Both the position numbers and the translations under genes were made by a program. This document shows, in pieces, positions 466 to 64,000 of a stretch of DNA of 64,000 bases; the stretch's first letter is position 1, and every line of letters begins with the position of its first letter. Below the pieces are notes generated by a model. That model made no database searches and was not told the DNA's origin. It saw only the letters and a program-made list of their open reading frames with translations. The DNA is from Tribonema minus (lineage: Eukaryota > Sar > Xanthophyceae > Tribonematales > Tribonemataceae), in contig JAFCMP010000524.1 of the NCBI GenBank assembly GCA_017506865.1, positions 434,001 to 498,000 of the forward strand, read 5' to 3'.

Positions 466-3400
466 ATGTCGGACATAAGCTCCAGCATGTCAAGCCCTCG
501 CAGCGGCGCGCACGGAGGAGGATCGGCGTCTGCAGGCCAGGCGGCACCTGCGAACCAGGTGGGTGCAAGAGCTGAAGGGTGTTTTGTTTGCATCCGCTGG
601 CTAAGCAGTACTGCTTGCTAGCTGCCGCATTGCCACTCAAATTACGATCTCAGATCTACAGTCTTCCGCCATATATTCAGTACGCCTGTCCTTTGCTGGC
701 AGCAGCAAGCACCTGATGATATCTGTTGCCTGGCATTTCAGTGCCAACTGCATGGATTCGTGCATGCAAAAAGTGTAAGAACTGCTGGTGGACAAAGATG
801 TAATATTTTGCTTTTTTATTGTTCGTCAAGGTAGATCCTTGCAGTCTTGCCCTCGTTCATTGAGTCACACACCGCTTGTTGTGTTGTTCAATAGTCCTAC
901 TTGCGGCAGTCGTGATTCATCCGGCTTTGGTGAACGTTGCCTACATGCAAGGGTGTGCTGCATCAGAGTCGACCTGCTACCTCTCGGCATCAGCACGAAA
1001 ACCTGCTTCCGTTATGCTCATAAACCTCCCCCGATGCACCCCCCCATTTGCCTCCAACCTCGTCAACGTGTCGATATCACGCAAAAGATCAACAAATTGC
1101 GATCCGCCGTGGCTGGTGATGCTAGATATTGCGATTACTGTCAGCTAACTGTTCGCACACCCTCATAGTCTACACCATTCCTGTTTCAACGGTGTAATGC
1201 TCCGCTTTAAAAGCATGCACCCAGGCTGTTCGACTTGCACGATGCGGGTGCTTGAAGGCATCTGCGGATGAAGTGCGGTTTAAACAGCTACCAATAAGAA
1301 GATGCCATGAATATTGATCACACAAAGAGCACATGAGCAAAACCGCAAAAACCAGTTCTTGAACTGCACTACCATGATCGCAGCACGTTCGTGGTGGACC
1401 TTGAATCGCATCATCAGTAGGGCAAGCTTCAAACAGACCATGACTTGGCATGATGACCGCAGCTCACGCACCGTGGACATGCGAGTGCCCAAACTATTGT
1501 CAAATTCATTGTACTCATGCCCTCATCCATTTGCGTGCCCGAATCCTGCCGCAGCCGTCAGCAGCAGCAAGGAGCAAGCAGCCATTTGGCACGGACAGCG
1601 ACAGCGACTCGGATGGCGCAGTGGTGCAGCGCCAGGCAGTGAGTGCAAACGCATCAATTCACATGGTTGAGTCTGTTGGAGTACTCAACTTTATTTATGG
1701 TTAGGTTATATCAGTGCTGATGAGGCGTAAGTGCAAATGCGTCAACTCACGTGGTTACAAACACACGGGTCTACTCGATTGAAGTACTCAACTTCAATGC
1801 TGATTAGGGGAATGTCACCACCCCTTTCTGCCTTTTGGTGTCTTGCCACGTGCGGTAACACATGCACATGGGAGCGTCAACTGCCTGCATGTCTGGGACT
1901 ATTCGTAGTGCTGAACCAGACATGAGGATCTAGCAAAATGAGGGTCCCCAAGTCATTTTCGCTGTACTGGTTGTTCTCCCTCTACCATGCATGATATGTG
2001 CTCCTCAAGCTTCCTACGCCATGTGCCGTGATGTGCATGTAACTGACCCAAGTGGCTGCAGATGTTGGCGGGCATCATCCGCTTTGCTCAGTACGTATAT
2101 GCGGCAGGCTTGTTCGGCAGGTTTGTTCAGTTTGTATGCTTTGTGGTCAAAGACAATGATTTGGTGACAAATCGCAACCTGGTACGCAGGTGTCGTTGGT
2201 GCCGCCAGCAACATATGAGCTATGTTCACAGTTGTGCTGGAGTGTCCTTGCCGAAACAATACCATGTATGTGCCAGTATCCATGTTATCAACTACTGTTA
2301 GCAGTACGTGAGCCACAGGCATGTACTCATGCTCTCGTGTTGGAAGCACCAAGTACATCTGTCATTGAGGCCACAAGCAGACGTAAGGCAGCTGGTTGTC
2401 ATGTTGTCTCCAAGCTCAACATCGAAGTCACGTGCTGCTTTTCTGCCTGCAGGGCTCTGCCAGCGGAGCTCGCTCAAGCAACGACAGCAGGTGCGTGGCT
2501 AGCTGAGCATTGAGCTGTATCGGCTGTGCAGTCGGCAATGACTTGCAGCAGAATGGCCAAGGCGTGCAGTGCGGCACTCATCTACGTACTTCAAACCGCT
2601 AGTGTGCATAGATCTGGAGGTCACGCACTTGCAGCAGATTCATGAGCCACTAGCCAATAGTAACGCTGGCATTACCTACTTATGCATGCTGCTGCAAGGT
2701 CTTGTCATTGTGAGTGCTGACAGCATTGCACGGGCCAGAGCTCATCATGCTGCGCCGGCATCAATCACGACTGTCTAGTCAGTCAGAATGGCAGGATTGG
2801 TCATGCAACCGTTGTGATCCATGAAAATCATGACCATCCATACACATACCATACTCACTCAGCTGCCTGCACCTCTGCTGTCTTTGACTGGGCACACTTG
2901 AAACTGCCAGCTACCGCAGTAATATAGTACATACCTTCTCAAGTACGCTTTGTTGTACAGTATGTGACAAGCAACAGTGCTCCTTTGAAGAGGGGGGATC
3001 GCAGCCTGCGCAAACTACACCATCCCTCCTCCCCCCCCCCCCCGGGTTTGCAATGCCATTGTGATCATACCTCAAGCTTGCTGACGCGACAGAGCACCTG
3101 CCAGAGGGGTAACCACGCATGTGTGCTGACTGTGAACCACATCCTGTACTGACTGTGAACCACTACTGTTCCATCCTGGCCTTTGTGTACTGACCGTGAA
3201 CCTCTACTGTACCATCCTATGGCCTTTGTGTACTGACTGTGAACACTATTGTACCATCATGTGGCGTCTGCACACAGCAGCGCGGCGCAGGACAAAGAGG
3301 GAGGGCGCACAACTTCAACAGGCGCCGGCCAATCAGGCGCAAGCAATGCCGGCGTGCGGCGGCTGCAAGACCTAGGTCTCAGCGCAAGCAGCGATGACAG

Positions 3401-6400
3401 CGACGATGGGGAAGGGGGGGGGCTGCGGCGAGCAAGGCGGGCGATGGGGCTAAGCGGGACGACGACAAGGGTGAGCACTGCCGCGAAATGAGGGAGTTGC
3501 AGTTCAATTTCAAGTTCCACCCATGCGTCATTGTTGTCATGGCGTTCAGTCAAGAGTATTGTTTACGCACTTGATGTTCACTGGTTTGTGAATGCGTTTG
3601 ACAAGCGAAGTTGGTCTTGTCCACTGTCGTTTACTCTTATGTAAACCACAAGTCGCCGCACGACGCGCACCGGTCGCTGTGCATACATACAATGCACCTG
3701 ATCGTCATCAGTGTGTGGTAGTCATCTCTCTTTAGGCCTCGCGTGCACGTCACCCTGGACACACGCCACTTGTCAACGCCTCTGCAGTATACTACATGCA
3801 CGACACACATGGCACTGCTCTACCCCAACAGCATCCCCCCAACCCTAAACCTGACCCTACCCCTACACATGGCATTGCTCAACGCTGCGCAGGCGGCAGC
3901 AGCGGCGATGGCGACGACGACGATGACGGCTCAGACGCGGACGATGTCTCCAGCACCAAGGCCAGGCTACCGCCGCTGCAGCAGATGCACCCTGCCACTG
4001 GCGCCCAGCCACATTCTGCCGAGCAGCCGCCGCAGGCGCCGGCGTCGTCTGCGGCGGGCATGTCGGACTTGTTTGCAGATGAAGACAGGTGGGCTGTTGG
4101 TTTATTTCAGGGGTTGGCTAAGGTCGGTGTGTTGATGGAGAGTCACATAAGCAGCTCAACACAGCGCTAGCGTCGCCTGCGGCGGGCATGTCGGACTTTT
4201 TTGCGGACGAGGACAGGTGCGCGTTTGGGCGTCTTGAGAGGGCAGTGATGGAGAGTCACATTTACAGTTCCGCATAGAGGCCGGCAGAGGCGCAGTCTGC
4301 TGAGCAGCCACCACGGGCGCCAGCAATGTCTGCTGTGGCGGGCTTGTCGGACTTCTTTGCGGATGAAGACAGGTGTTCATGTGTATTGATGAAGAGTCAC
4401 ATTTACATTTCCACATCAGGGCCAGCCAGGTGCGCAGTCTGCAGAGCAGGCATGTCGGACCTGTTCGCGGACGAAGGAAGGTGGGCTACTGGGAGGGTTT
4501 GGGGGCTAGGGTCAGGGGATCACTTCGTATTGGACAATGTGTTGATGGAGAGTCACCGAATGATGTGAACACGTGTCTGTGCCGTGTGCGCAGCAGGCGC
4601 ACCAGCTGATCTGGCGACGGACGCAGCAGATACATGTGCTCCGACAATCTTATTTTCACCTCTTCCACTCCGTTTGTACTGTGGTGGAGGTGATGGTGAT
4701 GGTGAGCGTACTCGTTGTCAACTCGTTTCCTCAAGATGACGCCCTTTCATATTGGTCGCATCAGTCCCTTGGCTGCAACGGCCCGTGTGCTGTTTGAACA
4801 CTCGTCGTGCTCACGAGGCCTTTGCACGTATGGTGCTGACCGAACGCGATACACTGTATCCTCATGTACTTGGTGTGTACTTCATATGTACACTTCGTGT
4901 TCCGCTGCATGCAAGGCCCGATGACTGAACACAAGACTCATATCTTTTCTAAGGTTACTGAACACACAGCTCATACTTCCTCTAATAGTCCACACCTCTC
5001 CAGTGATGGCGATGGCGAAGAGGACGACGAAGAGCAGACCTTGAGAGAGGTGCCATATACTGTATCCTAGTGTACTTCGTATGTACTGCGTATGTACACT
5101 CCGTGTCCTGCTATGCATTCTTGGCCATGGTGACTGACAAATGATTACTAAATGACACTTCTGTTCTCTAGAAAATTTCACGCTGTTAGTGATGGCGATG
5201 GCGAGGAGGACGACGAAGAGCAGACCTTCAGGGAGGTGCCGTACACTGTATCCTCGTGTACTTCATATGTACACTCCGTGTCCTGCTGTATATTCCGATG
5301 ACTCAACACACCACTCATACTTTCTCTAAAATGCCACGCCTTTCCAGTGATGGCGACGGCGAGGAGGACGACGAAGAGCAGACCTTCAGGGAGGTGCCAT
5401 CGCAAGCAGGGGCAGGGGCTGCGCGAAGCAGGCCAGCGCCAGGGGGAGGGGGGGCATCGTACACGCGGGGGCAGGCGTATCAGCAGCCGGAAGAGCAGGC
5501 CATTGCCATTGAGATACCGGAGCTGCAGAGGCCCACACCTGCTTCCAAGGTACCTGCGTATGTTACAGACGTGTGTATGTAGAAGCTATTGTTGAAGCTA
5601 TTGCAGCTGCATAGGGCCTCACCTATGAGCTGCAAGCCGTTGCCATTGAGAGCTGCAGCGGCCCACGCCTGCGTCCAAGGTACATATGTATCGACCGCTA
5701 AAAGCTTGCACACAGAAGTCGTTTGGCTCCTGTGGATGTGGTGGCACTGTTTGACTCATGGCCAATTGCTGCAGCAGCGGCGACCACGGTTGTTGGTGGA
5801 AGGCATTCAATTTGACGGCTAACCACACCTTTTCACCTAGAGCCCTACTTCGAAGTATGATCTTTTGATTCGTTTCCTTGTATGTATATAGGAACTGATT
5901 TTGCAGTTATTGCAGTTTCAGTGTGCACACGGGACCTCGGTGTGAGCAGCAAGCCGTTCTTGTTGAGCGACCAAAGCGGCAGAGACCCACGCCTGCATCC
6001 AAGGTATGTATGTATCTTAAAGTTTGTAGGAGCTGAAATTGAAGTCATTGCAGCTGCGTTGTGTACATGGGATGTCAGGTGTGAGCAGCAGGGCTTGTCA
6101 TTCAGGGTCCGGAGCTGGAGACACCCGTGCCTGTTTCCGTGGGAGGGGGAGGGGGGGTACGTATCCATGTAGGAGCTGATGTTGAAATACTCGCTACCGC
6201 ACTTCAACACGTGACTCCCCGCGTGCCAATGCCTGCGCGCAGGTGTATGTGACGCGCTTGCCAATGCTAGTGACACACGACATTGCTCACCTTGCTGCCT
6301 CACTTCAACATGCGACTCTCCCGCATGTCTACACACAGGACGCACAATGCCCTTGACGATGACAACGTTCACACACACAGTGCTCACCTTGCTGCCTCAC

Positions 6401-9400
6401 TTTAGCATGCGACTCTCCCATAACGTCAGTGCTCACCTTGCTGCCACACTGCACCATCTGACTCTCATCGGTCCTTCAGGTTTATGTGACGCGCATGCTT
6501 CAACATGTGACTCTCCCATGTGTCTATTTCCTGCAGGTGTACGTGACGCGCATGCCCAACGTCATGGGCATCAAGACGGCGCCTTTTGACCCCAACACGT
6601 TTGACCAGGTGGCGGAGGATGAGACATTCAAGTTCACCACTAACATCATCAGGCAAGCCTACTTCAACTCTCTTACTCTGGAGTACGTCACTTGAACCAC
6701 CAACTTCATCAGGCAAGCTCTCAAGGTTATCTCACTTACTTCGACGTACGTCAGTGCTATCACTTGAACGTTTGCGCTCGCACGTTGAAGTGTTACTTCA
6801 GATCCTATGCCTGTGTATGCGAGACATTCAAGTTCACCACTGATACCAGGCAAGCCTACTTCAACTTGATCACTTCAATGCTATTACTTTGCACGTTTGC
6901 ACTCTCACTTCAAAGCTGTCGCTTCACTACGTCCGTGTATGTGAGACATTCATGTCCGCCACTCAGTTGATCAAGCAAGCTCTCACTTCAACTGGATCAC
7001 TTCAGTGCCATCATTTGAACGTTTGATTGTCAACATTATCAAGCAAGTCACTGCACTCCGACCACGTCTCTTGACAATCGTTCCACACCCACGTGTGAGA
7101 CATTCAAGTCTACCAATCATCAATGCGCAAGGCCGCACTGCTGTGCGCGCTTACTTTGACAGGTGTGTATACGGTACGTATGCGTGTATGTCACATGGTG
7201 CTTCAAGGCAAAAACCGCAGGGAAGTTCAGCTGCACTGCCGTGTCAGGCAAATGACACTGTAACCCTTTTTTACCAGCAAACCAGCACGCTATCAGAAGT
7301 TGTTGCGAGGAACTTACTTGGTATGCTCACACACCTGGTGCTCTTATCTGAACGGTTTGAGCTTGAATGGAAACAAATCAAAAGATGGAAGAATACAACG
7401 CGTGCTGCCAGACACATGTGCGTAGTGCAGGAAACAAAGATCAGGTAGCTCAAGAAAGCGGTGTTGAACTTTGACACATCCGTTAAACTCATCAGGCGAC
7501 TCACCCAGGTCTGTGGTCACATGGCCCGTTGCACAATGTGCGCTCTGGTGACAGGTGGCGCCACCGCAAGAGTCTCACCTACTCACTTGCTCACTCACTC
7601 TTGTACTCACAAGTGCATTATACATTCGCATGACGCACACTCTTGTGACGCCACCGTAAGTGTGCACTCACTTAGTGACTCACTCACTCTTCACATGTGC
7701 ATCGATTCTTGTGACAGGTGGCGCCACCGCAAGTGTTTCACTGACTCACTGACTCACTCACTTGTTCACCCACGTGTGCATTGATTCATTCACTCTCGTT
7801 ACAGGTGGTGTCACCGCAAGTGTTTGACTCACTCACTGACTCACTCACTTTTCACTCACACATGCATTGTGTGACAGATGGCGCCACCGCAAGGATGCCT
7901 CTGGCGCGCTGGAATACGACGAACATGGCGAGCCGATTAGAGAAACAAACACCAGGTTAGCTTCGCCAATCATCCGCTGCGTCGTCACCTTACATCGCTA
8001 CTCATGCTGAACTAACAATGGGCCCAGAAACAAGTACCAGGTTAGTTTCGCCCATGATCTGCTGTAATTCCACCCTAGAAACACCAGGTTTGCTTCGCCG
8101 ATCATCCGCTGTGATGCCACCTTGCATTATCACCAAGTATGCTGAACTAGCAAGGAGGTCAGTCAGGTCGGCAAAATGCGACGCGAACCGAACGACGTCG
8201 ATTTTGCTGAACCATGAGCAGTTGAGATGCGCGTGAGGTCTGAGGATACCGTTTTTGAACAGCATTCATGCGGCTAACGCATGGGCTGGAGCACAAATAA
8301 GATGTCATCATCATAATGCACTCGCTACACTGGCAGTTCATGCTGAATCGCCACGAGTCTTCAAGTGCTGCTGCATCGCACACCTGTGCGGCACAAGTGA
8401 CGGGGCAGCCAGGCCGCCAACACCGCAATTCATCAACATGCATCGTTCACGTTCATGAACGACCCTTCATGCTGTGCAGGCTGGTGAAGTGGAGCGACGG
8501 ATCGCTGCAGCTCATGGTGGGAGAGGAGGTGTTTGACGTGTCTGAGCATGCGCTGGACAAGTCGTACATGTTCGTCAGGCAGGTGAGAGCCAACTTCAAG
8601 AGCGTCTTCAACTTTGCACTTCAGTTTTTTCAGTTGATGGGTGGGAGAGGAGGTGTTTGACGTGTCTGAGCATGCGCCGGACAAGTCGTACATGTTCGTC
8701 AGGCAGGTGAGAGTCATCTTCAACTTTGTACTTCAATTGATAGTTGGTGGTGTGTGGGCGAGGAGGTGTTTGACGTGTCGGAACATGCGCTGGACAAGAC
8801 GAACATGTTCGTGGCAGGTGAGGCCACTTCAAGAGCCGTCAAATTCAACTTTTCACTTCAACTCTTGCGTTTCGGTGGAAGTTGCATCTTCCCTCAGCAG
8901 TCAGGCCAGCGTGCTGCAGGGGCACTGCGGGCGACAGGCGCTGATAGCTTAAATTGAGAAAATCTGCATTAGGCAGAGAACTGGTGTACCACTTGCTTCA
9001 ACGGGTGGCACATTGCGAACATGGCCCTGCCAAGCCTTGTAATAAGTTTGAGCAGCCAGCCATCTCCAGTCTCGTGTGCATTGAGAGAAATATTTCGAAA
9101 GCTTAACATCAAAACTTAGCTTCAAGCTCATACAACGTCATGTCGCATTGCGATCGTCCGCAAGACATGCAGTGTGCAAGGGATGTCGCGGCATGGTCAT
9201 TCAGACGACTTGGCCTCCAGGTGCAGCAGCCAACATGCTTCTATTTTGTTGCCTAGACGACATCGATCATGACAATTCACATTGACCGTATGCGCGTGCC
9301 GCAGCAAGAGAGAGCAAGAGCGCCTGGAATGAATACGTGTGTCCGAGATGAGGGTGTGGGTCGGAGTTAGGGTAAGGGTCCAAGGTGCACACAGTATGCT

Positions 9401-12400
9401 TCACTGTGCTGTGCGAGCGCACACGTTTACCTACTTTGCGGTAGGGCACTCCTTCTCCTGCCGTTACTCGGATGACCTTGCGAGCAACACAGTTGCCGCA
9501 TATGCCACCTGATCCTATCTGTCAGGTTCCTATAAGTGATGTCCTTTGAACTTCACTGGATTTGCTGTGCGTGCTTGAGCAGAAAACGACAGAGGGCACC
9601 AGCTGCCTGGAGTGCCAGGGCCGCTTGGACAACAAGCTCACTTTCAAGCCCAGTGGCCTACACTCCAAGGCACACAGGTCAGCTTTGAATGCAGCTGAAG
9701 CAGTGTGCTTGGGCTCTGGATGGTGCTTTCTTTAGAAGCGGTGCAGATGCGGCAGTCGTAGATGGGTGAGAAGCGGTACAGCACATGCCAACTTCAACCT
9801 CAACTACAACTTCAAGCATGGTCGAGGGGGTCACAACACCCTGCTTCAAATGTGAATTTTACAGCAGTGCAGCCTACTTCAAGTACTTTGAAGCCGAACA
9901 AGTAGAACAAGGACCAGTGGTATGCCTCCAACACTACAAAGGGTCCTTGCACATGAAAGAACAGGTCAGGGTCATGCGTACAGTCAGCTGCAGACATCTG
10001 CCCCTGACATGCCTGAGCGTTGTGGAGGCTATGCGCATGCATACATACCCATGTCCCACAATCAGCATTGGCTGTCCATAAAGTGCAATTATATTTGCAG
10101 ACTGCTGCCTTGCGGCACCTGCTGCCGCTACTACACGGTGCCTCATGTACTTCACTGTTGAAGTCGAAACCGACACGATGCGTCTCTCGTGCCGCGTTTG
10201 TGCCACGACAGGAGTCCGGCGCTGGCTGTGCGCGCTCGCACTGTCATGAACTTCATTATTGAAGTTGAGACTGACCCCTCCATGCGTCTCTCGTGCCACG
10301 TTTGTGCCACGACAGGAGTCTGGCGCTGGCTGTGCGTACGCGCACACAGAAGGCTTCGCGCATCATGTCGTACTCCGAGACTATGGACCCGGAGGCCGTC
10401 AAGACACAGAGGGTATGTATGTATACGTATCTTTTGTTATGTATGGTAGACCCGGAGGTAATCAGGACAACACACAGTATATATCTATTGTTAGGGTAGA
10501 CGCGGAGGTCATCAAGACACAGAGTATGAATCTGTTGTTAGGGTTGTATGGAAATGCATCAAAAGATCGTAGAGCTGTAGGTGACAAGGAGCGCTTAGCC
10601 GTAAGTGCCTTCCACCAATGACCATGGTCGCCGCTGCTGCAGTCATTGGTCACGAGTCAGAACAGTGCCATCATATCCACAGTAGTCAAAAGACTTCTGT
10701 GTGCAAGCTTTTTAGCATTTGAGGCATAGTATACCCGGAGGCTATCAAGACACAGAGTATGCATCTATTGCTATGGTAGACTCGGAGGTCATCAAGACAC
10801 AGAGGGCAAGTTTATTTCTATTGTTATGGTAGACTCGGAGGTCGTTAAGACAGAGAGAATGCATCCGTTGCTATGGTAGACTGCGAGGGCCATCAAGACA
10901 CAGAGTATGCATCTATTGCGATCGTATACATACAGGGAGGCTATCATGACACAAAGTATGCATCTATTGTGATGTAAACCGGGAGGCTATCGTGACACAA
11001 AGTATGCATCTATTGTAATGGTATACCAAGAGGCTTTCGTGACACAGATAATGCATCTGTTGTTATGGTAGACTTGGAGGTCGTCAGTACACAGAGGGTG
11101 AGTATGTATCTGTTATGGTAGACCCAGAGGCCGTCACGAAACAGAGGGTGCTTATGTAGACTTAGGGTTGCCAAAACGGTATTATTGAATAAATACGGTC
11201 AACGGTATTTGTAGCGTAAACCATGCTGATCTTGACCACAGCTTCGGGTGCCCTGAGGTTTATCTTTGGGCTTACTGTGCCAGACGCAAAAATGGTATTG
11301 AAGTTCTCCAAAACCTCAATAGGCAGGAGTTTACGGTCAAATTACGGTACGATTTACGGAGTATATTTGTAAAAAAGGAACGGTTTTGGCAACCCTATGT
11401 AGACTACATCCGATATGGCAAGTAATACCTCCTGCACCGGCACAAATACATTTCTTTGGCCGGTTATAATCTGAACTGGTGGCGAGCCCTTGGTAAGCGC
11501 GATAGCCACCACTTAAACTTGTATGGGTAGCCACTGCTACCAGTTCTGAAGTACTTGTACGCGTTATTGTTTGACACTCTTCTGCAATTGTACCTTTTGC
11601 TGTGATGGGGTATGGTATGGTATGACATATTGCAGTCTGATTTTCTTGAAGTATGTATAGAGTGCACGGTGCATGATCTCCGCCCTTGCAGTGAGAGCAT
11701 TCGGCATGTGCAGCCTTGAATGCTAATATGCTCGTCTGTTTTGTGCTGGCCTGCGACTGGTTTGCAGGTGCGAACAGAGGAGGGCACGCGCAAGCCGCAG
11801 ATCTGGCATGAGTTCTCAACACTGTCGGTTTGAACTGCCCTGTGCTGCCCTGCGACCGATCTGCAGGTGCGGACAGAGGAGGGCACGCCGCATCTTTTTT
11901 GGTGTTCGTTTCCATGCTTATCTGTGTGTGCTGGCCTGCGACTCATTAACAGGTGCGAACAGAGGAGGGCACGCGCAAGCGCGAGAAGCGCCGCACCTCT
12001 GGCGCCGCCGGCTACCCGCGCTACCGCGATGGCGCGCGTGGCAAGCGCGCGCGCATGTCAGCGACGTATCTGGAGGAGGGCGTGGATTACGACGAGACGG
12101 GGCTCAAGTCGCTCAAGGAGGACACGCGCAACAGGTGAGCTGCTCTGCTGGCCAGTGGGTAATGTGTACTGTAATGGGCTCCATAAATCAGTTACTTTTG
12201 GTGACTTGTGGTGATATGTTGCATACGGTCCGTGATGGCATCTGTGGCAAGCGCGCACACATATCTGCGACATATCTGGAGGAGGGCGTGGATTATGACG
12301 AGACGGGGCTCAAGTCTCTTAAGGAGGACACGCGCAACAGGCGAGGCGGCCCTGCCTGCTGCCTTGGGTTAGGGGTAGGGTAGGGTTAGGGCCATGTTAG

Positions 12401-17913: not shown

Positions 17914-17955
<42 letters not shown>

Positions 17956-25534: not shown

Positions 25535-25572
25535 TCAAATGCCGCCGCCGCCAAATGGCATCTCGGGATCCT
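25430..25572 (-). repeat. 3'-end module (stop codon, hairpin, AATAAA), copy 1
   Basis: On the minus strand this covers codons for EMPFGGGGI, the stop, about 85 bases of 3' region, a possible TTTCGCGCCCTGGCGAGAA stem and AATAAAAAGTACAA. A closely similar stretch lies in an HRD1 intron at 54446-54590 (plus strand). The distal part alone (gggctttt.cgcgccc..gcga..aaattaataaaa) also occurs at about 29595-29642 (plus strand). Confidence 0.75.
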
Positions 25573-36515: not shown

Positions 36516-36591
36516 CGGCGTTGAAGTTGTATATTATGTCCTGGACCGCATGGGCTGCGCGCACGATAAATCGGGCTTGCAATAACTAAAT

Positions 36592-40758: not shown

Positions 40759-40791
40759 TACGGTGGATGAGGGGAGCGCCGCACCGGCGGC

Positions 40792-41511: not shown

Positions 41512-41515
41512 CTAC

Positions 41516-43790: not shown

Positions 43791-44091
43791 TGCAAAGCTT
43801 CCTTGGAGCTAGATCGGTCCCCTCAGTTTTGCAGCAACTCTGCTGCTCACGTGCTCCTTGCACACGTTTTTGAAACTTTTTTTTTTTAAAGATTCTACCA
43901 CTTCTTCAACTTTGACTTGAACTTTGATTTGAACTGAAAGTGAGAGTGAGAGCCGGATCAAGCTGCTCGCAGGAGTGAGGTGGGAGGGAAAGCAGTGCGG
44001 AATATATTGTACATCTTCATTTCCGAATAACAGGCTCCGAAAGAGCGCTGGCGTCAGAAAACGGGGGCGATCAGGAGGAGGATCCAGCGCG
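43791..44091. promoter_or_regulatory. Short bidirectional promoter region (MSS51-like / HRD1)
   Basis: About 300 bases separate two divergent genes, so both promoters and 5' leaders must be here. Visible features are a T9 A3 tract at 43878-43889, a run of CTTCAA/TTGAAC motifs at 43902-43937 and AGTGAGAG repeats. No TATA box in a standard position is evident. Confidence 0.5.
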
Positions 44092-53000: not shown

Positions 53001-56000
53001 GAGCAGGGGGGGTGGTTGCTGGGGGAGGAGCAGGAAGGGGGGGGGGAGGAGGGGGAGGGTGCAGACATGGGTGGTGAGGCAGAAGGGGGGGAGGGGGTCG
53101 CAGGGGCGGAAGCGGCAGGGGCAGGCGTTGAGGGCATTGCGCGGACGCAGCCATCGGTGAGACATCTGCTCCCAATCATTGCTATTGTTAGCATCAGGCA
53201 TTTGTCTCTGTACGTCACTGCGAGGATGTCGCACTTGCGAGTTGAAGGGTAGGTGGTGCCTGCAGACTGGCTATCATGCATGTATCACAAAAAAGTTGGA
53301 TAGCTTAGAAGGACGGAGGTACGCACTGGTTGTGAATGGCGGCAGTCCATATGCGGATCTTATGCCATGGAGTGGCACTTTCACATACGCGTACGTACAG
53401 TTGCTGACGCGGAATCGTTCATTTTCTTGGCTTTACCTGCGTTGCATGACAACATTACAAGCATCTTAGGGTGAGTGTCCTCAGTGGCCATACCTGTAGC
53501 TGCTAGCATGCACAGCCATGGTCACCATGTAGGTCACGCGCAGTGCTGCTCACATCACACACACGGGACGAATTTGCAGTTCTTTAAGTACAGTACTTGA
53601 AGTACATAGCATTTAAGAATGTTACTGCTGAAACTTCTGAAAGATACCCAGATGCTGGCGGTGCCCCACCTCTCGCTGCTTTGCCAAGTTGAAGTTGAGG
53701 TTCGCTCCACAACTGCACTTATGTACCATGCATGGCACAGCAGTCAACAGTGCATGCCGAGACAGGAGTGCGCACTTGGAGAGTCATCCTGACATCGGGT
53801 GATAATCTTGAAAACGGTGCTAAGTTGGTTTGCCAGGGCTATCATATCAGTTATTTTTGTGAGCATATTTGAAGTAACAAACCTTCGCTCCTATCCTCTG
53901 CGTTGGGGCAAGCGCATGCTCCATATGGCCTGTGACACACGTCTACAATCAGAATATGCGCACTTGCAATCCTATGCTCCATACATACGCGCCTGTAACC
54001 CATGTCAACAACCAGAACATGCGCTTGTGTGCACTCGAACGTTTTCTGCAACCACCAACAATGGCGCACTACGCACGCACGCTGTCACGTGTGTGCCACA
54101 ATCAGCAGTACATTGCAGCCGCTGCTGTCGCATGTTGAGGCAATTCCATGCTCCATACGCGCCTGTAACGCGTGCCAATGACTTGGACTATGCGTTCATC
54201 AAACAGTGCCTGCAGTCACAAGCAATGGTGCAGACAGCAGTGGCACATGTGTGCTACAGTGTGTGCTGCAGCTGAGCACTGAAGCGCTAAACTGTGCTGT
54301 GATGCACGCAGATGCAGCTGCCGCAGCCTCAACTGCCGCTGCAGCGGAGGGTGTTTCCGGACAGCAGCGCTCAGGCTGAGGAACGTACACAGGTGAGTCT
54401 AAGACCACTCAGCAAGAGCAATCATGAACTTCGAAGTACAAGCTCGAGATGCCATTTGGCGGCGGCGGCGTTTGAGTGGTTGTCGTTGCGACACTTTCAG
54501 ACTGTCATACGACATGTAGATTCCTTACAGCTAGATGCCAATCATCTGGGCTTTTTCGCGCCCTGAGCGAGAATTAATAAAAAGTACAAGCTCAGCAGCA
54601 GCATGTTGCACGTGCATCACTACATATGCATTTTCCGTGGTCGACGTTCTTGTGACACTTGAGATTTCCCGTGCGAGCGTGAACTTGTGCAACAGGTGTA
54701 GAACGAGGGCCCTCAATCCGACTGCCGCGCACCGCGTGCATGACGAGCACTGAGTGTATTTGCACAATGAGCACCAACCCTAACCCTAATTTAAACCTAA
54801 CCCTAGCTCGAAACCTAACCCCAATCCTAAAGGCGCTGTCACAAAGCGCACGATGAGCACAGGCGTGTTGCTTTACTTGGCGCATGCATCGGAGCACTGA
54901 AACTTGCCCCGTGACGGGCGCCGATATGATGTGCAGAACGAGCACTGACACACATAGTGTCATGATGAGCACTGACACGAATGCGCACATCAGAAAACTG
55001 CAACAACAATTCCTTATGTGCCTCATGGCATGCCAATGCAGATGAGCACTTGGGCACGCTGCAAGTGCGTGCTTCCCATCGTGATCACCGTTTCGTTCCG
55101 CTGCTGACACACTGCCACCTGAGCACTGACACACATGCGTATAATGAGCACTGCTGACACACTGCTCAAGTGGAACGCTGCCATGATGTGCACGACCGTC
55201 GCTGACGCGTAGTGCGGCCTCCTTCTCCACCCTCTTGGCTTTGGGTCAACTAACAGGGCGACTCTGAATGAGACGCACTCACTCACCTGTGGTTCCTCAT
55301 GTGGATGGAGCATGATGAGCACTGCACTGCTGACACACTGCGCATGTGGAGCGCTGCCATGACATGATGATACACACGACCGTCACTGACGCGCAGCACG
55401 GCCTCCTTCTCCACCCTCTGCTCATCAGGAGGAAGCCGCCAGGCGTGCGGAGGTGGTGGCAGCATGGGAGCGTGTGGCCGCGGCGGTGGAAGAAAGGAGG
55501 GCTGCAGAGGCGACACCAGCACCAGCAGCATCGGCGGCAGCAGCCGCACCAGCAGCAGCAGCAGCGGCGGCGGCGGCAGCAGCGGCGGCGGCGGCGGCGG
55601 GAGCGCCACCAGTGGCAGCACCCACGGCACCAGCGGTAGGATGGAGTGGTGAGTGAAGAAAAAAAGAAAAAGGTCACTGTTGGTGCACGGTCACCTCCAG
55701 TTGTATTCTTTACTTCTATTTGGAAGTTTGTATCTCTACTGAATAACGGCCGTGTTGGCACAGGGGCCGGTGGCGGCGGGGGCAGCACCAGCACTGCACA
55801 CGGCCGCGCGTTTTGCACCATATATTGGGCGTAGTAATGGGTAGGGGACTCGTGTGTTTACTGGGGTGATTTGTCACACTGGATATAGCGCGTAACTCAC
55901 AAGGATCAGAGATGGAGGCGGCAGTGCTCAATTGTTGGCAGTGACCTCTGCTCCAGCATTTGGATGGACTGGTGGACGCACTCAACTTCAGCTGTGTCGG

Positions 56001-59000
56001 CGCTCATTGCACTTTTGGACTTGTGTGTATTTGTACAGGCTCTTTGCATGTGTTGGATGGAAAGAAGTAACTGCCTTTCCATCAAATGCCTTTCAATTAA
56101 AGTAGCGTCACACCTGGGCTGCTTGGTGATTGCCGCAACAAGCACCGCATTTCCCACATTGCTACAGCATACTTGCGCTTTGTGACTTGTTGACTGAGTG
56201 CGGCTCCTGATGCAAGTAGGGCTACGAGTAGGTTTGGGTGAGCAGTGGTCACAGGGTTAGGTTTAGGGTTAGGGATAGGGTTGGGGTTAGGGTTGGGCCA
56301 ATAGCACGGACTGGCACACGCCTGGGCCAATAGCGTGGACTGGGTTTATCTAACCCTGACCTACAACCCGTACTCAAGCGGCGCTTGCTGAGGACTCTGA
56401 TTGCTTGTGGTCTTGTTTGCGACTTTGAACCTCCCTCTTGCACTTTTTGTTGTTGCTACTGCTGCCACCTTCACAGACCGACCTCCGCCTGGGTTGACCG
56501 GCCTCCTTCGTGCGCGCGAAACGATTGGCGACGCGGCAAGCACTGTGAACCTGAGCGCAGCCCTTGCCACATCTGCGACAGAGGTGAGCACTTCACAGTT
56601 GAAGTTTGCAGGTTCCCCATGGACACCAGCTTGAGAGCATGTTTTACGAAGCGACGAAGCGACGCAAGTCTACTTGCCCGCAAGTCTACTTGCCCGCTTG
56701 TGGCTATAGACGGGTGGCACCGCTGTTCTTATAGTTTGTGATCTGTGCTTTTCTGACGCCATGCTCGTCCCAATAGCGTATGCGAGCCATGTGTGGAAGT
56801 GTTACGGTTGACTTGAGCATCACCACGGTTGCTTAGCACTGAGCATTTTCGCCCTCATTCTCGGAATGTCCTGTTCACTTTGAAGCATCACACCAGCGCC
56901 GTGTTGCAGCGCAGTCAGCTGCGCTTTTTGTCATGCTCAAATGCGTTTCCTCAGCCTGTATATCGATTGACGCCCTTGCTGGTGGTGGTGATGATCATAC
57001 TTGGCACCGTTGCTCATCATGCTGCACGTGTAGCTCACGCACGACAAGAAACAGTGCAACCGCGGCATTGACTTCCGTATTGACAGGTGGCTGTACCCCC
57101 CATGCTTATCAATATTGTCACCATACTGGTTTTCAAGTCACCTGCATGGTGATTTTGGCTTATTTGGGGGGTAGTTGAGATTTGGCAATTGCAAAGCTTC
57201 TGCACAGCTCTGCACAGATCCAAGGTATTTGTTGCACTTTACAGCCGCCAACTTCATGTCAAACCTTTTCCTTGATGCCTTCGCCCCGTTGGTGACTTTG
57301 AGCCAGGTTAGTGCATGGCACGTCACTATTAAATGTACCACTCATTGACGCATTTTGTGTGCTCAATGTCGTCGTCATTGCTGCTGCTGTCTCAGGAGGG
57401 ATGGCAGCCGTGGCCAATGGTAGTGGCAGCGGACGCAGTGCAAGTGCACCAAGAGCCCACGATTGGCAGCCCTGTCACGACGATGCTTCTCAAGGGTGAG
57501 CCAAGACAAGTGCTGTACGCTCAGTGAAGCATGCTTTGACGAAGTATGTGGTATTTACGTCACCAGAGGGATGAGCATCACCAATACCCTGTGGGTGGAC
57601 CGAAATACGCATGGTACACGCACGTATTCCAGGTGCTTTTTTTTGGCATAGGTTGATGGATAGAGGCAGCAAGGCATATGGTATCACTGCGCCAGAGTGA
57701 TGAGCATCAACATCACCCTGTGGGTGGACCAAAACATGCATTTCATGAGCATGTCATCAAGTTCCCGACATGTGGTCATTGATTGGTGTCGGTCATGAGG
57801 CCGCAAAGTGAATTGGTTCACAAGTTCATCGCGGTAAAATTGAAATGTCTGTTAGGCACTGGGGTTGGAGCGTAGAAGTTAGAAACGGAACGGAACCGAA
57901 ACGGAAAACGGAATAAAATTGCCGTTTAATAGGACACGGATACGATTCCTCTTGAGGTCCATCAGCATGCTCACATGACATGTTCAAAATATCAACTGAA
58001 AAACGAAACGGGAATTTTCCAGGCAAACCGTGTTTGAACCGTGTTTAAACGGACCGAAAAACGAAAACGGAACACGGAAAAACGGTTGCGCTTTATGCGG
58101 GTTTAGCCGCGTTTGCGTGCTTGTGTGGTGCCAGACATCTGTCCTGGTGGGTGCACTGCACATTGTGCAGCATGGCAATGATTTTGATCTTTAAGAAATA
58201 TTTGACCGGTAAACAAGTTCAAGTAAAAGTTGAAGTTCAATGTTTTTTTTTCACAAGGCAGACAGAGACTCCGCAGAGTTTGCAGAGTTTGGACCACAAT
58301 CCTACAAATAACGCCTATCTATGCCCTGAGACAGAGTTTGGACCACAATCCTACAACTAACGCCTATCTATGCCCTGAGACTGCTTGTCGGGGCGTTCCG
58401 TAATTTGTCGGTAGCCCTGCAACTAGCTGTCTAATGCGCGGTCACCCGCCCGGTTTACTGCCGTGCCGCTGCTGGACAGAGTCCATTGTATTGGATAAGA
58501 CGACATTGTATCGGATAAGCCGACATCGTGTATGATATGCCATGTAGTTGCAACCTATTCCTCCTTGCTTGCCCGGCCAATGGGGTTAAGCAGGACCATA
58601 GTAATAGCAGCACTTGTGCATGTGGTGGTGGGCAATGGCACGGCTGCACAGGCTTAAAACACCACCAAAACGGCACGGCTGCACAGGCTCAAAACACCAC
58701 CAAAACGGAACGAACACGGTTTTGGTTTCTGTGTTCCGTGTTCCGTTTAACACGGAAAACGAAACGGAAACGGAAGGCCCGTGAGGGCGAAACACGGAAC
58801 ACGAAACGCAGCCCCCTGAACATTCCGTTTCTAACCTCCAATGGAGCGTGCATGTGATGCACAACCCTGGTGCTGAGAACGATGGCAGTATTTCATTGCT
58901 GCTAGATGAACTCAGACAGCTGTGGAGCCCATGATGGAGTGATTATTTGGTGTTTGCAATGCTGCAGAGGCACCTCAAGTTCAAATACTTCTCTAGTGTT

Positions 59001-59703
59001 CAGATCATGCGAGACAACTTTTACGCCCGCTGACGCGCATTTCTGCCCTCTGCCCTTGACCCGCACGCACGCAGGCACGGCGCTGTTCATCTTCATGCGT
59101 GAGCATACGCCCTCATGAATGAAAATGACTTTTTGCGCCTGCTGACGTGCATTTCTGCCCTCTGCCCTCTACCCTTCCGCGCATGCCGCAGGCACGGCCC
59201 TTTTCATCTTCACACGCAACAGCCGCCCGCCACTAACAAACCCCGACCCGTGGCTCGCGACGCGCGACGGCTGGATACTGCGCAGCACACCCCCTGAACC
59301 CCCTAGCGTACAGCCACTCGACGTGCCTATTCCCGCCGCGCTGCTGCCCCTAGCCCGCACCCCTCGCAACTCCTCTAGGCCTGAGCACAGTGACCGTTTG
59401 CAGACGGTTGTGCTGGGGCCATCGGCAGCGGCGGACCATCGGCTGACGCTGACGACGCAAGGCAGGTTGAGTGCTGCTGCGGCGGCGGACGCGGTGGCGG
59501 CGGCGCTGGAGGCGGCGGCGGAGGCGCAGAGGGCGGCGGCGGCGGTGGCGCGCGCTGCGGCGGACCTCGCAGCTGCTGTACTCATGGCACGCGGCGATGG
59601 TGGCGGCGGTGGCGGCGGCGGCGATGGTGGTGGCAGCAGTGGGGAGGCGGTGGCTGCGGCTGCTGCACCTTCTGAGCGGAATGCAGAGGATGGCACGCAG
59701 TAG
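44092..59703 (+). CDS. HRD1: HRD1/SYVN1, ER-membrane RING-H2 ubiquitin ligase (15 exons)
   Basis: Catalytic subunit of ER-associated degradation. Exons: 44092-44165, 44963-45074, 45758-45867, 46870-47005, 48389-48454, 49649-49813, 50644-50780, 51844-51930, 52667-53156, 54312-54392, 55429-55635, 55764-55830, 56477-56583, 57396-57495, 59192-59703. All phases agree (about 816 residues). Multiple membrane segments occupy residues 1-230, with family blocks EQFYWTVVFLTTNKLAL, VFLGQLRDIEVEHLNENCRF, VLVLFSVLLFCKAFHWLAQA and YGMPLHIVRDLW. NMNERFPDATAEELDGCERT then leads into a complete C3H2C3 RING (CIIC, CGHIFHFQC, CPTC; about 292-335), closest to plant HRD1. The tail is Ala/Glu-rich and partly coiled-coil-like. 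Introns after exons 1 and 7 begin with GC. The donor after exon 12 (GTAGTA) is weak but the only one that keeps phase. Many exon edges are echoed in introns. Confidence 0.94.
45076..45112 (+). repeat. Donor-side echo of HRD1 exon 2
   Basis: The end of exon 2 and its donor (CTCAAAGTG|GTGAGTCACCT) is followed by a second, similar site (CACCAAAGTG|GTACGTCACAT). Confidence 0.55.
47100..47695 (+). repeat. Four tandem donor-side echoes of HRD1 exon 4
   Basis: Units of about 160-177 bases contain the exon 4 end (GAGCACATTGAGCAGACNGA, CAACCANGCGCT, then CTGTTCTGCCTGCAG and GTATGTATGT) plus the following 'cagttcagtcgcagctggtggactgcgca' intron text. The GAGCAC positions are 46943 (real), then 47120, 47294, 47454 and about 47616. 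The copies read EHIEQTDNHALSTYLRLFCL with small changes. One has lost its donor. Confidence 0.9.
48934..48969 (+). repeat. Interstitial (TTAGGG)n block in HRD1 intron
   Basis: Five to six units of GTTAGG/TTAGGG in a row. Similar shorter or degenerate blocks occur at 12365-12405, 46345-46365, 51491-51518, 54774-54830, 56253-56297, 61602-61630, 62470-62500 and 62946-62993. Confidence 0.9.
49550..50165 (+). repeat. Echoes on both sides of HRD1 exon 6
   Basis: An acceptor-side copy (GTGTGCGCAG|AGCCC) lies at about 49563-49580 before the real exon at 49649. Donor-side copies of the exon end (CACGTCTGATAGAGGGCACA, TGGCACGCCAAGGC, then GCCTCAGAG and GTGCGC) lie at about 49907-49989 and 50085-50165. 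The second is more decayed and lacks the donor. Intron text 'gagcagcactcgtga.tcactcgactc' is repeated throughout. Confidence 0.85.
51491..51518 (+). repeat. Interstitial (TTAGGG)n block in HRD1 intron
   Basis: About four units of TTAGGG, starting CCCTAGGG, in the intron before HRD1 exon 8. Confidence 0.9.
51657..51690. repeat. (ACAT)n microsatellite
   Basis: About eight tandem 'acat' units in an HRD1 intron. Shorter 'gtatgtatgta' or 'catacatacata' runs are frequent next to donors elsewhere in the window. Confidence 0.95.
52362..52580 (+). repeat. Two acceptor-side echoes of the HRD1 RING exon
   Basis: CAG|GGACCACATGGACGCCG, the start of the RING exon (real at 52667), is copied at 52362 and 52508. 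The first keeps HMDADKN then jumps to IFHFKF, losing the LSCGH part. The second reads HMDSGKKLSCGRIFHFQF and then a stop, with the zinc-binding His changed to Arg and the following Cys lost. Each unit is about 150 bases with shared 'catacccy..ctacctacc' intron text. Confidence 0.88.
53157..54311. other. Long HRD1 intron, nothing else supported
   Basis: Contains repeated 'cgcctgtaac.c.tgtcaa..acc' segments near 53970-54010 and 54155-54190, possibly another intron-internal duplication. No gene is supported. Confidence 0.4.
54446..54590 (+). repeat. 3'-end module, copy 2 (inside HRD1 intron)
   Basis: Closely matches the minus-strand gene's 3' end at 25430-25572. It starts with codons for EMPFGGGGV and a TGA, continues through 'gtggttgtcgttgcgacact' and the TTTCGCGCCCTGAGCGAGAA stem, and ends right after AATAAAAAGTACAA. 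No similarity continues past either edge. Confidence 0.8.
55150..55428 (+). repeat. Duplicated intron segment before HRD1 exon 11
   Basis: About 85 bases ending at the acceptor region ('tggarcgctgccatga', 'cacgaccgtc.ctgacgc', 'ggcctccttctccaccctct') occur at about 55170-55236 and again at 55344-55420, directly before the real acceptor. Confidence 0.75.
57874..58841. mobile_element. hAT-like non-autonomous element (968 bases)
   Basis: Perfect 8-base target duplications TGGAGCGT (57866-57873, 58842-58849) flank ends that share GTTAGAAACGGAA as an inverted repeat. Subterminal sequence is packed with ACGGAACGG/CCGTTCCGT-type motifs in both orientations. Inside are small tandem duplications (58276-58380 and about 58640-58705). 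No transposase is encoded. It lies in the last HRD1 intron. Confidence 0.88.
59073..59112 (+). repeat. Acceptor-side echo of the last HRD1 exon
   Basis: GCAG|GCACGGCGCTGTTCATCTTCA precedes the real GCAG|GCACGGCCCTTTTCATCTTCA at 59192. The upstream 'gctgac.tgcatttctgccctctgccct' text is also copied. Confidence 0.85.
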
Positions 59704-60495: not shown

Positions 60496-63400
60496 ATGAG
60501 GACCCTTTCGTGGATGGTACCGCTGACGGTGAGCTTGTGCCTGCAAGTGCCCGGGCGAGCGGCTGGCCTCAGGTCAGCGGACACCGCGGTTGACGACCAG
60601 GAGCGCGAGCTGACTGCGACAGTAAACGTCTGCAAACCTGGCCAGGTACGGCAAGCATAACAAGTGTGTATCAAAGTATCGGCACAGCATTGGCTGATAC
60701 TGCGGTGGAAGCTGTGGTGGTGGTGTGCTTCTTCATTTTTCACAGCTGTGCGTAGAGTACTGAGCGTCTGCAAATCCACATGCGGCTGCTGCTGTAGATG
60801 CTGCTAACAGCCCTGACCACCAATACAATACACTTCCAGCGTGCAGCAACTGAGATTCATCATCAACGAGGCCCTATGTGAGCACGCGAAGCCAACTGCA
60901 GCCGTCGTTTCGCACCACCGCCGTTTCAGGGGATTGTTGATTAGTGCAAATCCAGTTCTCGCTGTAGATGCATCAACCTTCAGGTGTTGCCTGCGCCCGA
61001 CTGATCATGGCACACATTGCCGTGCAAGCCTGCATTTCTTTCTCGCACCGCCTCTCTCACCTGAGCACGTACATAGACTCTACTGTCCCCCAAGGTGGCG
61101 TTCAACAAGCAATGCACTGGAAGGACATTCACAAACGATCAGATATAGAGCCATGTACACTGTCAAGAACACCAACCCTTGATCTCAGTGAGCTTGTGGG
61201 CTCCATGGCTGTGCATGTATAGTCATGGTCGTTGCCAACATGCATGCCACGCTGGCGCTCTTAAAGCAATGCCAGAAAGTGAAGCATCTTGTGGCCTCCA
61301 TCGAATTTTCAAGATATTGTGGTCCCTGTGTTGTAGGTTCCCAACATACAGTCACAACGCACATGACGTAAGGTTATCCGAGCTGTGCAAGGAGTTTTAA
61401 ATCTTACCAACAGCAGTTGAAGTCGTGCGCATTGCAGGCAACACACGCCCGCCATTTTTGTCATAGGGCATTCTTACTGCAATCACGGGACTTCACGCAC
61501 CACATAATCTGATTGATTATGAATGTGTACGTCTCATTACGCACAGGCTACGACTGGCATGTACGCTGCTTCTGCGTGCGCTGTGTGCACTGACCACAGC
61601 CTAGCCCCAACCCTAACCCTTAACCCTAACCAACTGATATCACGCCCAGCTGCACCAATACCCATGGCAGCACAATCGAGACACCAGCTTTCTTGTCATA
61701 TTTTCATGCAAAGCACCTGACGTGTACTTGTGGACATGTCTCCAAAAATCTACATACGTGAATCATCATAGCGTGCCGCTCAATGCTTCTATCAAGTCTA
61801 CATGAATGATCAAGAAGGCATACAATACTGCTCAAGCATGGCGATGCACTCCTTTCATGCAACACATACACGCACAAGCGCTGGTGCAGTCGGCCATTCA
61901 GCAGACGGTGACTCTCCCTTGCCGGTGCTGCGCGCTTGCATGTGTACCGCGCGTCAGGGCCTCTCGTGGAATGCCTGCAAGGACTGCACGGGCAATGCCG
62001 TGTCTGTCATGGACAGCGGCAAATCCGTCTGCAAGGACTGTGAACATGGACTGGTAGCGAGCGCCGACCACACATACTGCGGTAAGTGAAGTGTTGCGTC
62101 TTAAGACTACTTGAATCGGTCTGCAGGTGACACTAGGTCTGCTCTCAAGGCGGCAATGCCTTCAACCTTTGTGCTGAACTTAGAAACGATGTGCATCAAA
62201 CCACACATACTGCGGTAAATTAAGTATTGCGCCTCAAGACTCCTTGAATCATGATGTGCATCATGACCACACATACTGCGGTGAGTGTTGTTGCTCCTTG
62301 AGATTCCTTCAATCATGAGGAGCGTCAAGACTGCACATACTGTGTAGGTGCTGCTCCTCGAGACTCCTTTGATCACGATGTGCATTATGACCACACAGTC
62401 TGTGGTGAGTGTTGCACCTCAAAAGTTCTCAAACTTCTTAAATCCGATGATATAGATCACGATATATTTCAGGGTTAAGGCTAGGGTTAGAGCTAGGGCG
62501 AGGCTTAGCCCTAGCCCGACCCCTCGCCTTCACCCTAAGGCTAGCCTGACCACAAATGTTGAGGCAGAAAACTACAGCAGTGTTTGACATGCAGTTGTAC
62601 ACAAATTGGGCTTGGCAGCGCTGTGATGCTGCGGAGTTGTTGCTGCCAGGCACGGCTGCTGAGATTGCGCGACATGATATTTTGTGGTTGGATGTGCGAA
62701 CGCTTCAAGCCTTGAAGTGAGCATGCGTGCCGCACTTGTCATGCCCATCGCAGTCCTCAACTTGGGCCAGGGTCTGGAAGAAGTCAAAGACAGGCGTTCC
62801 AAGGAAAGCAACAGTTCTCACTGTGCGCGCCACACACACGAACAGCTTAGGTACATTGAAGTTGGAAGTTGAAGCTCTATGTGATATCGTGCACTTGTGC
62901 ATCACAGCGAGAATCTCTCTCATGCCCCGCGCCCCCAGTGAGCACTGCCTAACCCTAGCCCTAACCCTGACGCTGATTCTAACTCTAACCCTACATGCTG
63001 CAGCGTGCCCGCCCGGCAACGGCTGGCTGGACAAGCAGAAGTGCACGCCCTGCGTGGGCAACAGCTTCTCTCCCGGGGGCTCTCTGCAGGCCTGCCAGCC
63101 CTGCGCCAAGGGCTACAAGGCTAACAATGACCACACCAAGTGCATAGGTGAGTGTTCAACCTTCGCCTCGGTTGAATGCCAAATGTAGCTGTGCTGCGCA
63201 TGTGAAACGCCAGAAATGTAGGTGCAGGTAGGTGCCAGCCCTGTGCCAAGGGCTATAAGGTCAAGAACGACCACACCAAGTGCATAGGTGCGTGCTCAGT
63301 TACATGCCAAATGCACTGTGTGTCTCATTCCAGTTGTCTGCATACCAAACAACCCTGGCTGATCATGGCGAGGTTGTCATCATCTAGGGTTAGGGTTATG

Positions 63401-64000
63401 GCCGAAGTTGCACGCAACGCCTGTGCGACATTTTTTTAGTTTTTAGGCCTCTTTTACTTTGAGATATGTACGCACAACCATAATCTGAGCGATGTTTCAT
63501 GACGCCATTGTATTAGTCTACCCTGGATGTACAGTGTCAGCACTGCTTCACCTACTAAGACTCTTCGTTTCTCTACAATAACGTTTGTTGTAAATACATA
63601 TTTTTGTCTGACACTTCTGGACGTCCACTGCTTTTGCTGCGGGTTTCTGCACGTTCAGACTGCCTGCCTGGCTATGGGGACGATCTTACCATAGAAGAGC
63701 AAGACCTCATCACGGGATGGGACACGCGAAGTCTGGCCGACTTCAACGGCACCAAGTGCGATTCCAAGTAATGAGGCATGAGTAGAAAGTTGGAACATGG
63801 ATTTGAAGTTGAAGGTTGAGGTGCAGAAACCACACGAAACCAGCATACACGTGTACTCTGTTTGACTCTGATGGTATCAAGTGCGACCCCAAGTACATAG
63901 GATGACTTGTATGCCTTGCTGCGCAGAATCACAATTTGAACCTCAAGGTCAGAATTCATCAAAGGCTGTAGTCTGATTTTCTTGTGTTCAGAGCTGTCGG
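60496..64000 (+). CDS. Secreted or membrane Cys-rich protein, GCC2/GCC3 ephrin-receptor-like repeats (5' part, continues past window)
   Basis: Exons: 60496-60645, 61958-62081, 63004-63147, 63659-63767, all in phase; the gene runs off the right edge. MRTLSWMVPLTVSLCLQVPG followed by RAAG is a typical signal peptide. The mature part has closely spaced cysteines in the pattern of GCC2/GCC3 or TNFR-like modules: CKPGQ, NACKDCTGNAVSV, CKDCEHGLVASADHTYCACP, CTPCVGNSF, CQPCAKGYKANNDHTKC and CLPGYGDD. Such modules make extracellular stalks in many protist surface proteins. Function beyond an extracellular or binding role cannot be inferred. The last donor is read as CCAA|GTAATG because the copy at about 63877 has the same junction as CCAA|GTACAT; otherwise the frame stops there at a TAA. 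Confidence 0.78.
62196..62405 (+). repeat. Four donor-side echoes of exon 2 of the Cys-rich gene
   Basis: GACCACACATACTGCG|GTAAGT, the end of exon 2, is repeated near 62198-62214, 62262-62281, 62327-62343 and 62386-62405. The spacing is about 60-70 bases with 'ctc.agactccttgaatcatgatgtgcat' text. Two keep GTGAGT donors. Confidence 0.85.
63226..63290 (+). repeat. Donor-side echo of exon 3 of the Cys-rich gene
   Basis: A copy of the exon 3 end (TGCCAGCCCTGTGCCAAGGG, then GACCACACCAAGTGCATAG and GTGCGT) lies downstream of the real one. It reads CQPCAKGYKVKNDHTKCI, so the cysteines are preserved and it could serve as an extra module. Confidence 0.85.
63868..63895 (+). repeat. Donor-side echo of exon 4 of the Cys-rich gene
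   Basis: GGTATCAAGTGCGACCCCAA|GTAC resembles the real exon end GGCACCAAGTGCGATTCCAA|GTAA at 63767. It supports placing that donor there. Confidence 0.7.

Follow-up and report, generated by a model that had tools for sequence, protein, structure and literature searches.

The stretch of the Tribonema minus genome analysed here (the window: 64,000 nucleotides, forward-strand positions 434,001 to 498,000 of contig JAFCMP010000524.1, assembly GCA_017506865.1) carries five multi-exon genes whose introns hold partial copies of the adjoining exons, each running from exon sequence across the splice junction into intron sequence (exon-edge copies). The genes were modelled from homology, codon bias and sequence reading and comprise 39 exons: LEO1 (15), the HRD1/synoviolin gene (11), an ankyrin gene (5), a Cys-rich gene (4) and a membrane gene on the minus strand (4). 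With all copies excluded, the joined LEO1 peptide from exon 6 (part) to exon 12 matched Pfam Leo1 at positions 1-164 of 165 (7.9e-41), and residues 1-338 of the HRD1 model matched TPR_SYVN1_N at positions 6-268 of 268 (1e-85) as well as a RING domain. The joined peptide of the ankyrin gene matched Ank_4; a putative F-box in its exon 1 was assigned by reading the sequence. Neither the Cys-rich gene nor the minus-strand membrane gene matched Pfam at E 0.01, and the names used for them are purely descriptive. The HRD1, Cys-rich and minus-strand models are open throughout with no stop, the sole stop of the ankyrin model is its end (its 5' start is provisional), and LEO1 exons 5-15, when joined, contain one stop, at the terminus. 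Exon phases agree across the models except at LEO1 exon 4, where a frame change is needed around a G run at about 3414-3422, possibly a sequencing error as read; exon 4 before about 3409 was excluded from frame-based counts. Several introns begin with GC instead of GT (GCAAGC, GCAAGT; at 6653, 44166, 50781 and, on the minus strand, 30043), and the two copies listed for the LEO1 exon 7 donor keep the GC form.

To locate copies, each exon edge (at most 150 exon and 60 intron bases) was compared by Smith-Waterman alignment with 1.5 kb on each side, with a score threshold of 18 for junction-crossing copies. Lenient scoring gave 44 such copies at 25 of 72 modelled junctions (donors 16/37, acceptors 9/35), with scores of 18.6 to 91.1; the best of 78 reversed-sequence controls, which used shorter templates (60 bases each side) and one flank, scored 14.4. 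Stricter scoring retained 39 copies at 24 junctions and very strict scoring 35 at 21. One lenient match, at the LEO1 exon 13 acceptor, was rejected as spurious because the copy has no matching splice site. It is counted in the copy and junction totals and the random-point comparison below (44 at 25), and remains inside the strict-trimming counts and bootstrap; it was left out of the lenient divergence, family, frame-offset, lenient gap and stop, and splice-strength counts. The remaining 43 copies at 24 of 72 junctions confirm that junction-spanning duplications exist, as an earlier sequence-only description of the window (the preliminary description) had proposed. Its figure of more than 45 copies is roughly correct once the decayed units that follow LEO1 exon 11 are included (rows of 2.1 and 7.6 copies from Tandem Repeats Finder, TRF); that array is split by a dispersed element at about 10545-10712.

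The copies are head-to-tail direct repeats, as judged from tandem-repeat rows and self-comparison, with copy-to-copy steps of 47 to 344 bases (median 130). Each of the five modelled genes has at least two junctions with copies (spurious match included: LEO1 15/28, HRD1 3/21, ankyrin 2/8, Cys-rich 3/7, minus-strand 2/8), and in other, partly modelled genes a copy occurs at one of nine additional junctions. The preliminary claim that nearly every spliced gene is affected thus holds for the five modelled genes, although the distribution is uneven and LEO1 carries most copies. Acceptor copies lie upstream and donor copies downstream in 44/44 listed cases, as had been noted; this regularity carries no information, however, because whichever copy adjoins the exon body is the one that is called real, so that geometry forces the rule.

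Table 1 Exon-edge copies and the LEO1 and HRD1 genes. Real junctions are given as the positions of the two bases flanking the splice site.
Feature	Copies	Real junction	Positions	Strand	Basis and remarks
LEO1 gene, 15 exons			466-15176	+	exon models, Pfam Leo1, PDB LEO1
LEO1 exon 5 donor	3	4088/4089	4150-4261, 4288-4375, 4432-4556	+	alignment
LEO1 exon 6 acceptor	2	5347/5348	4957-5240	+	alignment; 4 silent, 1 changing difference
LEO1 exon 6 donor	3	5549/5550	5632-6186	+	alignment; last copy decayed
LEO1 exon 7 acceptor	1	6536/6537	6198-6262	+	alignment
LEO1 exon 7 donor, GC type	2	6652/6653	6821-6993	+	alignment
LEO1 exon 8 acceptor	2	7877/7878	7658-7817	+	alignment
LEO1 exon 8 donor	2	7955/7956	8026-8149	+	alignment
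LEO1 exon 9 donor	2	8582/8583	8643-8860	+	alignment
LEO1 exon 11 acceptor	1	10315/10316	10158-10241	+	alignment
LEO1 exon 11 donor	array, ~47-base units	10412/10413	10443-11158	+	TRF, self-comparison, alignment
LEO1 exon 12 acceptor	2	11952/11953	11728-11888	+	alignment
LEO1 exon 12 donor	1	12134/12135	12230-12382	+	alignment; 111 exon bases
LEO1 exon 13 donor	2	13139/13140	13201-13382	+	alignment
LEO1 exon 14 donor	1, weak	14451/14452	14547-14621	+	alignment
Ankyrin gene exon 3 donor	1	20937/20938	20998-21073	+	alignment
Ankyrin gene exon 4 acceptor	1	22615/22616	22456-22555	+	alignment; aligned exon part identical
Minus-strand membrane gene exon 3 donor	copies	31361/31362	31209-31342	-	self-comparison, alignment
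Minus-strand membrane gene exon 2 acceptor	1	32669/32670	32952-33074	-	alignment
HRD1/synoviolin gene, 11 exons modelled			44092-55635	+	models, Pfam
HRD1 exon 4 donor	4 further	47005/47006	47118-47778	+	alignment
HRD1 exon 6 donor	copies	49813/49814	49919-50162	+	self-comparison, alignment; second copy decayed
HRD1 RING exon acceptor	2	52666/52667	52343-52563	+	alignment
Acceptor in partly modelled gene	1	59191/59192	59020-59095	+	alignment
Cys-rich exon 2 donor	copies	62081/62082	62200-62415	+	TRF, alignment
Cys-rich exon 3 donor	1	63147/63148	63233-63320	+	alignment
Cys-rich exon 4 donor	1, weak	63767/63768	63847-63905	+	alignment

Junction-crossing repeats were more common than repeats elsewhere in introns, as the preliminary description had supposed: a repeat crossed 34.7% of junctions (25/72), and among 1500 random intron points the share was 20.3% (p = 0.003). 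Background rates were 13.4% among 1337 intron points outside the copies, 14.3% among 420 exon-interior points and 13.6% among 506 points outside the five gene models. When the positions of repeats were shifted circularly, 24/68 junctions were covered compared with 15.4 expected (p = 0.007). By gene, LEO1 had 15 covered junctions versus 9.1 expected (p = 0.013) and three other genes had 2 each versus 0.3-0.7, while HRD1 alone showed no enrichment (3 covered versus 4.6 expected). Both this test and the exon-masked tests that follow are based on BLAST repeats, not on the Smith-Waterman copies.

Because a constrained exon keeps copies recognisable for longer, exons were masked and the start of each intron (bases 3 to 22) was examined for overlap with intron-intron repeats. 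The simple form of this test gave no excess at three thresholds (18/68, 13 and 10 junctions versus 14.1, 13.0 and 11.8 expected). We considered this form biased, since a repeat can reach a window next to a masked exon only from the unmasked side. In its place, and after its outcome had been seen, we used a control with randomly placed pseudo-exons that imposes an equal handicap on both sides. Against this control, the same 18, 13 and 10 of 68 junctions compared with 11.4%, 9.7% and 7.8% (replicate s.d. 3-4%), which indicates that coding constraint alone does not account for the enrichment, to which constraint on splice signals could add. Junctions are thus enriched about 1.6-2.3 fold, and the repeats are not exclusive to them. 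The preliminary idea that junctions are hot spots for slippage is supported in part, by this roughly twofold enrichment, but not as regards a special place, since repeats also cross points outside gene models at the rate given above. The excess may reflect edges that are prone to duplication, slower loss of copies or longer detectability, and a mild duplication hot spot at junctions is possible; as the window was chosen for showing the pattern, genome-wide enrichment may be lower.

Duplication itself is general: 23% of intron bases, 17% of exon bases and 10% of bases outside the gene models lie in local direct repeats (reverse-transcriptase region left out). The arrays did not behave like introners or other mobile elements: in a self-comparison of the whole window (at least 45 bits) they paired with their own surroundings, and the long-range repeats detected were other sequences.

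Together, these data suggest that the exon-edge copies are probably the product of frequent local tandem duplication followed by decay, rather than extra working exons. Short local tandem duplications, with steps of about 50-350 bases, would arise at a high rate in non-coding DNA, and a unit would straddle an exon edge by chance. The copy on the exon body would still be spliced, and the other would stay in the intron with an orphan splice site, its far side lacking a native partner site. Such copies would be tolerated because the spliceosome would still find the intact exon, so we infer that splicing ignores them, and they would then decay, with constraint persisting on the real exon.

If a copy is free to change and its source is constrained, the divergence expected at amino-acid-changing sites is half the neutral rate. 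With lenient alignment, the 43 copies came close to this expectation: mismatch was 0.093, 0.079 and 0.186 at codon positions 1, 2 and 3 and 0.174 on the intron side, and there were 113 amino-acid-changing differences versus 116 expected. Unique differences were silent in 85/191 cases (39% expected, p = 0.085), and with families combined the silent bias had p = 0.39. We thus rejected an impression gained by eye that the differences are overwhelmingly silent, because the lenient count over all copies lies near what a neutral copy predicts. No coding constraint was seen in the HRD1 RING-exon copies (0 silent, 6 changing differences; one copy has a histidine-to-arginine change in the RING) or at the LEO1 exon 7 donor, where copies showed 1 silent and 9 changing differences.

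The form of the copies does not support the proposal that they supply alternative exons, splice decoys or poison exons. Copy offsets showed no reading-frame preference (11, 15 and 17 of 43 at 0, 1 and 2 modulo 3), and no copy family contained a whole exon (0/24 versus 1.9 expected, P = 0.09); the longest exon part in any copy was 111 bases, under the 150-base template limit. The Leo1 and synoviolin domains are complete without the copies, and the lack of an in-frame stop in the aligned exon parts gives no sign of poison exons. Splice sites in the copies reached the lower quartile of real sites in 20/31 donors and 9/12 acceptors, and simulated neutral decay gave 53% and 63%; the orphan sites are thus about as strong as neutral decay predicts.

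Several observations weigh against simple decay. Silent differences in the lenient alignments exceeded expectation (104 versus 75.6). Under strict trimming, mismatch was 0.048 at positions 1 and 2 and 0.166 at position 3, a ratio of 0.29 (bootstrap 0.18-0.51 over 24 families, with 3% of replicates at least 0.5) where a neutral copy gives ~0.5; without the HRD1 exon 4 array, which is an outlier, the ratio was 0.35 (0.21-0.60). Unique differences under strict trimming were silent in 63/119 cases versus 38% expected (p = 0.0006), or in 50/104 without HRD1 exon 4 (p = 0.02). Differences that were not family-wide numbered 37 silent and 56 changing versus 24.5% silent if neutral (p = 0.0008), in a test that is not clean because the silent share would also rise if the real exon had given rise to its copies on separate occasions. 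Exon parts contained 10 gaps, compared with ~20 expected from intron-intron repeats (p = 0.01; the tiles of this control overlap, which makes its 140 alignments non-independent) and ~35 expected from the copies' own intron sides. In-frame stops were absent from the aligned exon parts of all 43 copies (0 versus ~5, P = 0.006); counted base by base, there were 2 versus 5.3 expected in lenient and 0 versus 3.4 in strict alignments. A net frame shift was absent from 39/43 copies, and CpG context did not account for the silent bias or the position ratio. These hints agree in direction, and each is weak or depends on trimming. In our reading, lenient alignments extend beyond the truly homologous stretch and thereby count spurious amino-acid changes, and strict ones drop diverged parts. 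The hints could reflect coding use of some copies or capture of copies from diverged functional alleles; across copies the signal of coding constraint is weak, and it is strongest in HRD1 exon 4.

The first of these alternatives holds that some copies are, or were, in-frame coding sequence used as cassette exons, and HRD1 exon 4 is its best case. Four extra copies follow this exon at steps of about 160-177 bases. Copies 2, 3 and 5 differ from one another at 1-2 of 42 position-1 and -2 sites and at 6-9 of 22 third positions, and together with the real exon (copy 4 omitted) they show 2 changes at positions 1 and 2 versus 13 at position 3, a count made by eye (P = 0.005 against the half-rate null, ~0.1 when corrected for 24 families). 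An AG lies 15 bases upstream of each copy with the frame open, as read from the sequence, and copies 2 and 5 could therefore be read as candidate 78-base cassettes whose inclusion would extend the loop preceding transmembrane segment 4. The overall silent bias and the deficits of indels and stops point the same way. However, the donor GT is gone from copy 3, and copy 4, whose donor is also missing, changes freely. For this array the lenient count (16 silent, 6 changing) gives p = 0.0027, the best of any single family, which rises to 0.058 when corrected for 22 families; the RING-exon and LEO1 exon 7 donor copies show no such constraint. We regard cassette use as unlikely.

Alternatively, in a highly polymorphic population, unequal exchange may have captured copies from functional alleles, or from species, that had diverged. 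Part of the divergence would then have arisen while both sequences were constrained, yielding a silent bias and neutral intron divergence in a copy that has no function, which is compatible with a position ratio below 0.5. This scenario requires high allelic divergence, however, and we consider it quite improbable. That the tandem copies are false duplications introduced by assembly is very improbable indeed: a single assembled sequence lies behind them all, yet ~17% of intron-side bases and 19% of third positions differ between copies and their sources, which makes read-level error unlikely, and each HRD1 exon 4 copy has its own changes, unlike a read-level duplication.

A bolder proposal than decay would be that exon edges are true hot spots and that some copies, HRD1 exon 4 first among them, are kept as in-frame cassettes under protein-level selection. 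We find this doubtful; if true, hot spots and cassettes would together form a standing reservoir of partial exons to splice in. Should the silent bias in HRD1 exon 4 hold up, the array would represent a source of new coding sequence. The window offers an unusually dense set of exon-edge duplications, and about half of LEO1 junctions (15/28, one spurious) have copies at different stages of decay. They would form a natural series for studying how orphan splice sites are passed over by the spliceosome, how frequently copies turn into exons or introns, and whether duplication is more likely at exon edges.

Mutually exclusive exons that arise by tandem exon duplication are whole-exon copies with both splice sites. 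They resemble the present copies in that exon-derived sequence is repeated in a neighbouring intron, but they differ in extent, as none of the 24 families here contains a whole exon. The closest known case, reported singly, is a potato RdRp gene in which a tandem duplication crosses an intron-exon boundary, taking in the 3' end of the intron with its splice signals and the first part of the following exon (PMC4974935). The same gene has a second, purely intronic duplication of 83 bases, and the gain of a new intron was proven by RNA reads (PMC4974935). The window shares with potato the combination of boundary-crossing and intron-only duplications, whereas here the gene models place the copies inside existing introns and at about one third of the junctions examined. 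Tandem duplication of coding sequence has been proposed to cause novel introns in Drosophila (PMC2891723), and in the Rogers model, as summarised in PMC4974935, introns are gained by exonic tandem duplication with a proto-splice site. Such events resemble ours in being short local tandem duplications involving splice signals; they differ in that an exonic piece is duplicated and one copy turns intronic, whereas here exon edges are copied into introns. Within the gene models of this single genome, copies appear to lie within existing introns, and no intron gain is apparent. No gene-wide set of exon-edge copies was described in the titles and opening lines of abstracts among the matches listed, from a literature in which most subscription journals were outside the scope.

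Other repeats and genes lie in the same window. A dispersed element of ~80-180 bases occurs in both orientations in LEO1 introns (5700-5877, 10545-10712, 14203-14312 and 14903-14983). Short telomere-like runs (GGGTTA/CCCTAA) are found in introns and spacers at 48934-48975, 51492-51520, 54779-54826, 56253-56294, 61605-61631 and elsewhere, and telomere-like 8-mers exceed the third-order expectation by 20 to 30 standard deviations. Two dispersed motifs, TTGAAGTT/AACTTCAA and GTATGTAT/ATACATAC, are strongly over-represented on both strands in the window outside 36400-41600. Scans of the window with Rfam (gathering thresholds) and for tRNAs gave no match, and comparison of the LEO1 peptide and the reverse transcriptase with viral contigs, and of HRD1 with bacterial and archaeal genomes, revealed no relative. 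On the minus strand, a GC-rich reading frame of 1399 residues (36595-40791) matches RVT_1 (1.4e-08) with weak similarity to R2 retrotransposon proteins, and an apparently single-exon gene (42636-43808) carries an MSS51 C-terminal domain (1.6e-23). Finally, an inverted pair at 25421-25565 and 54445-54589, 29 kb apart, is 96% identical over 146 aligned bases and represents a young dispersed repeat.

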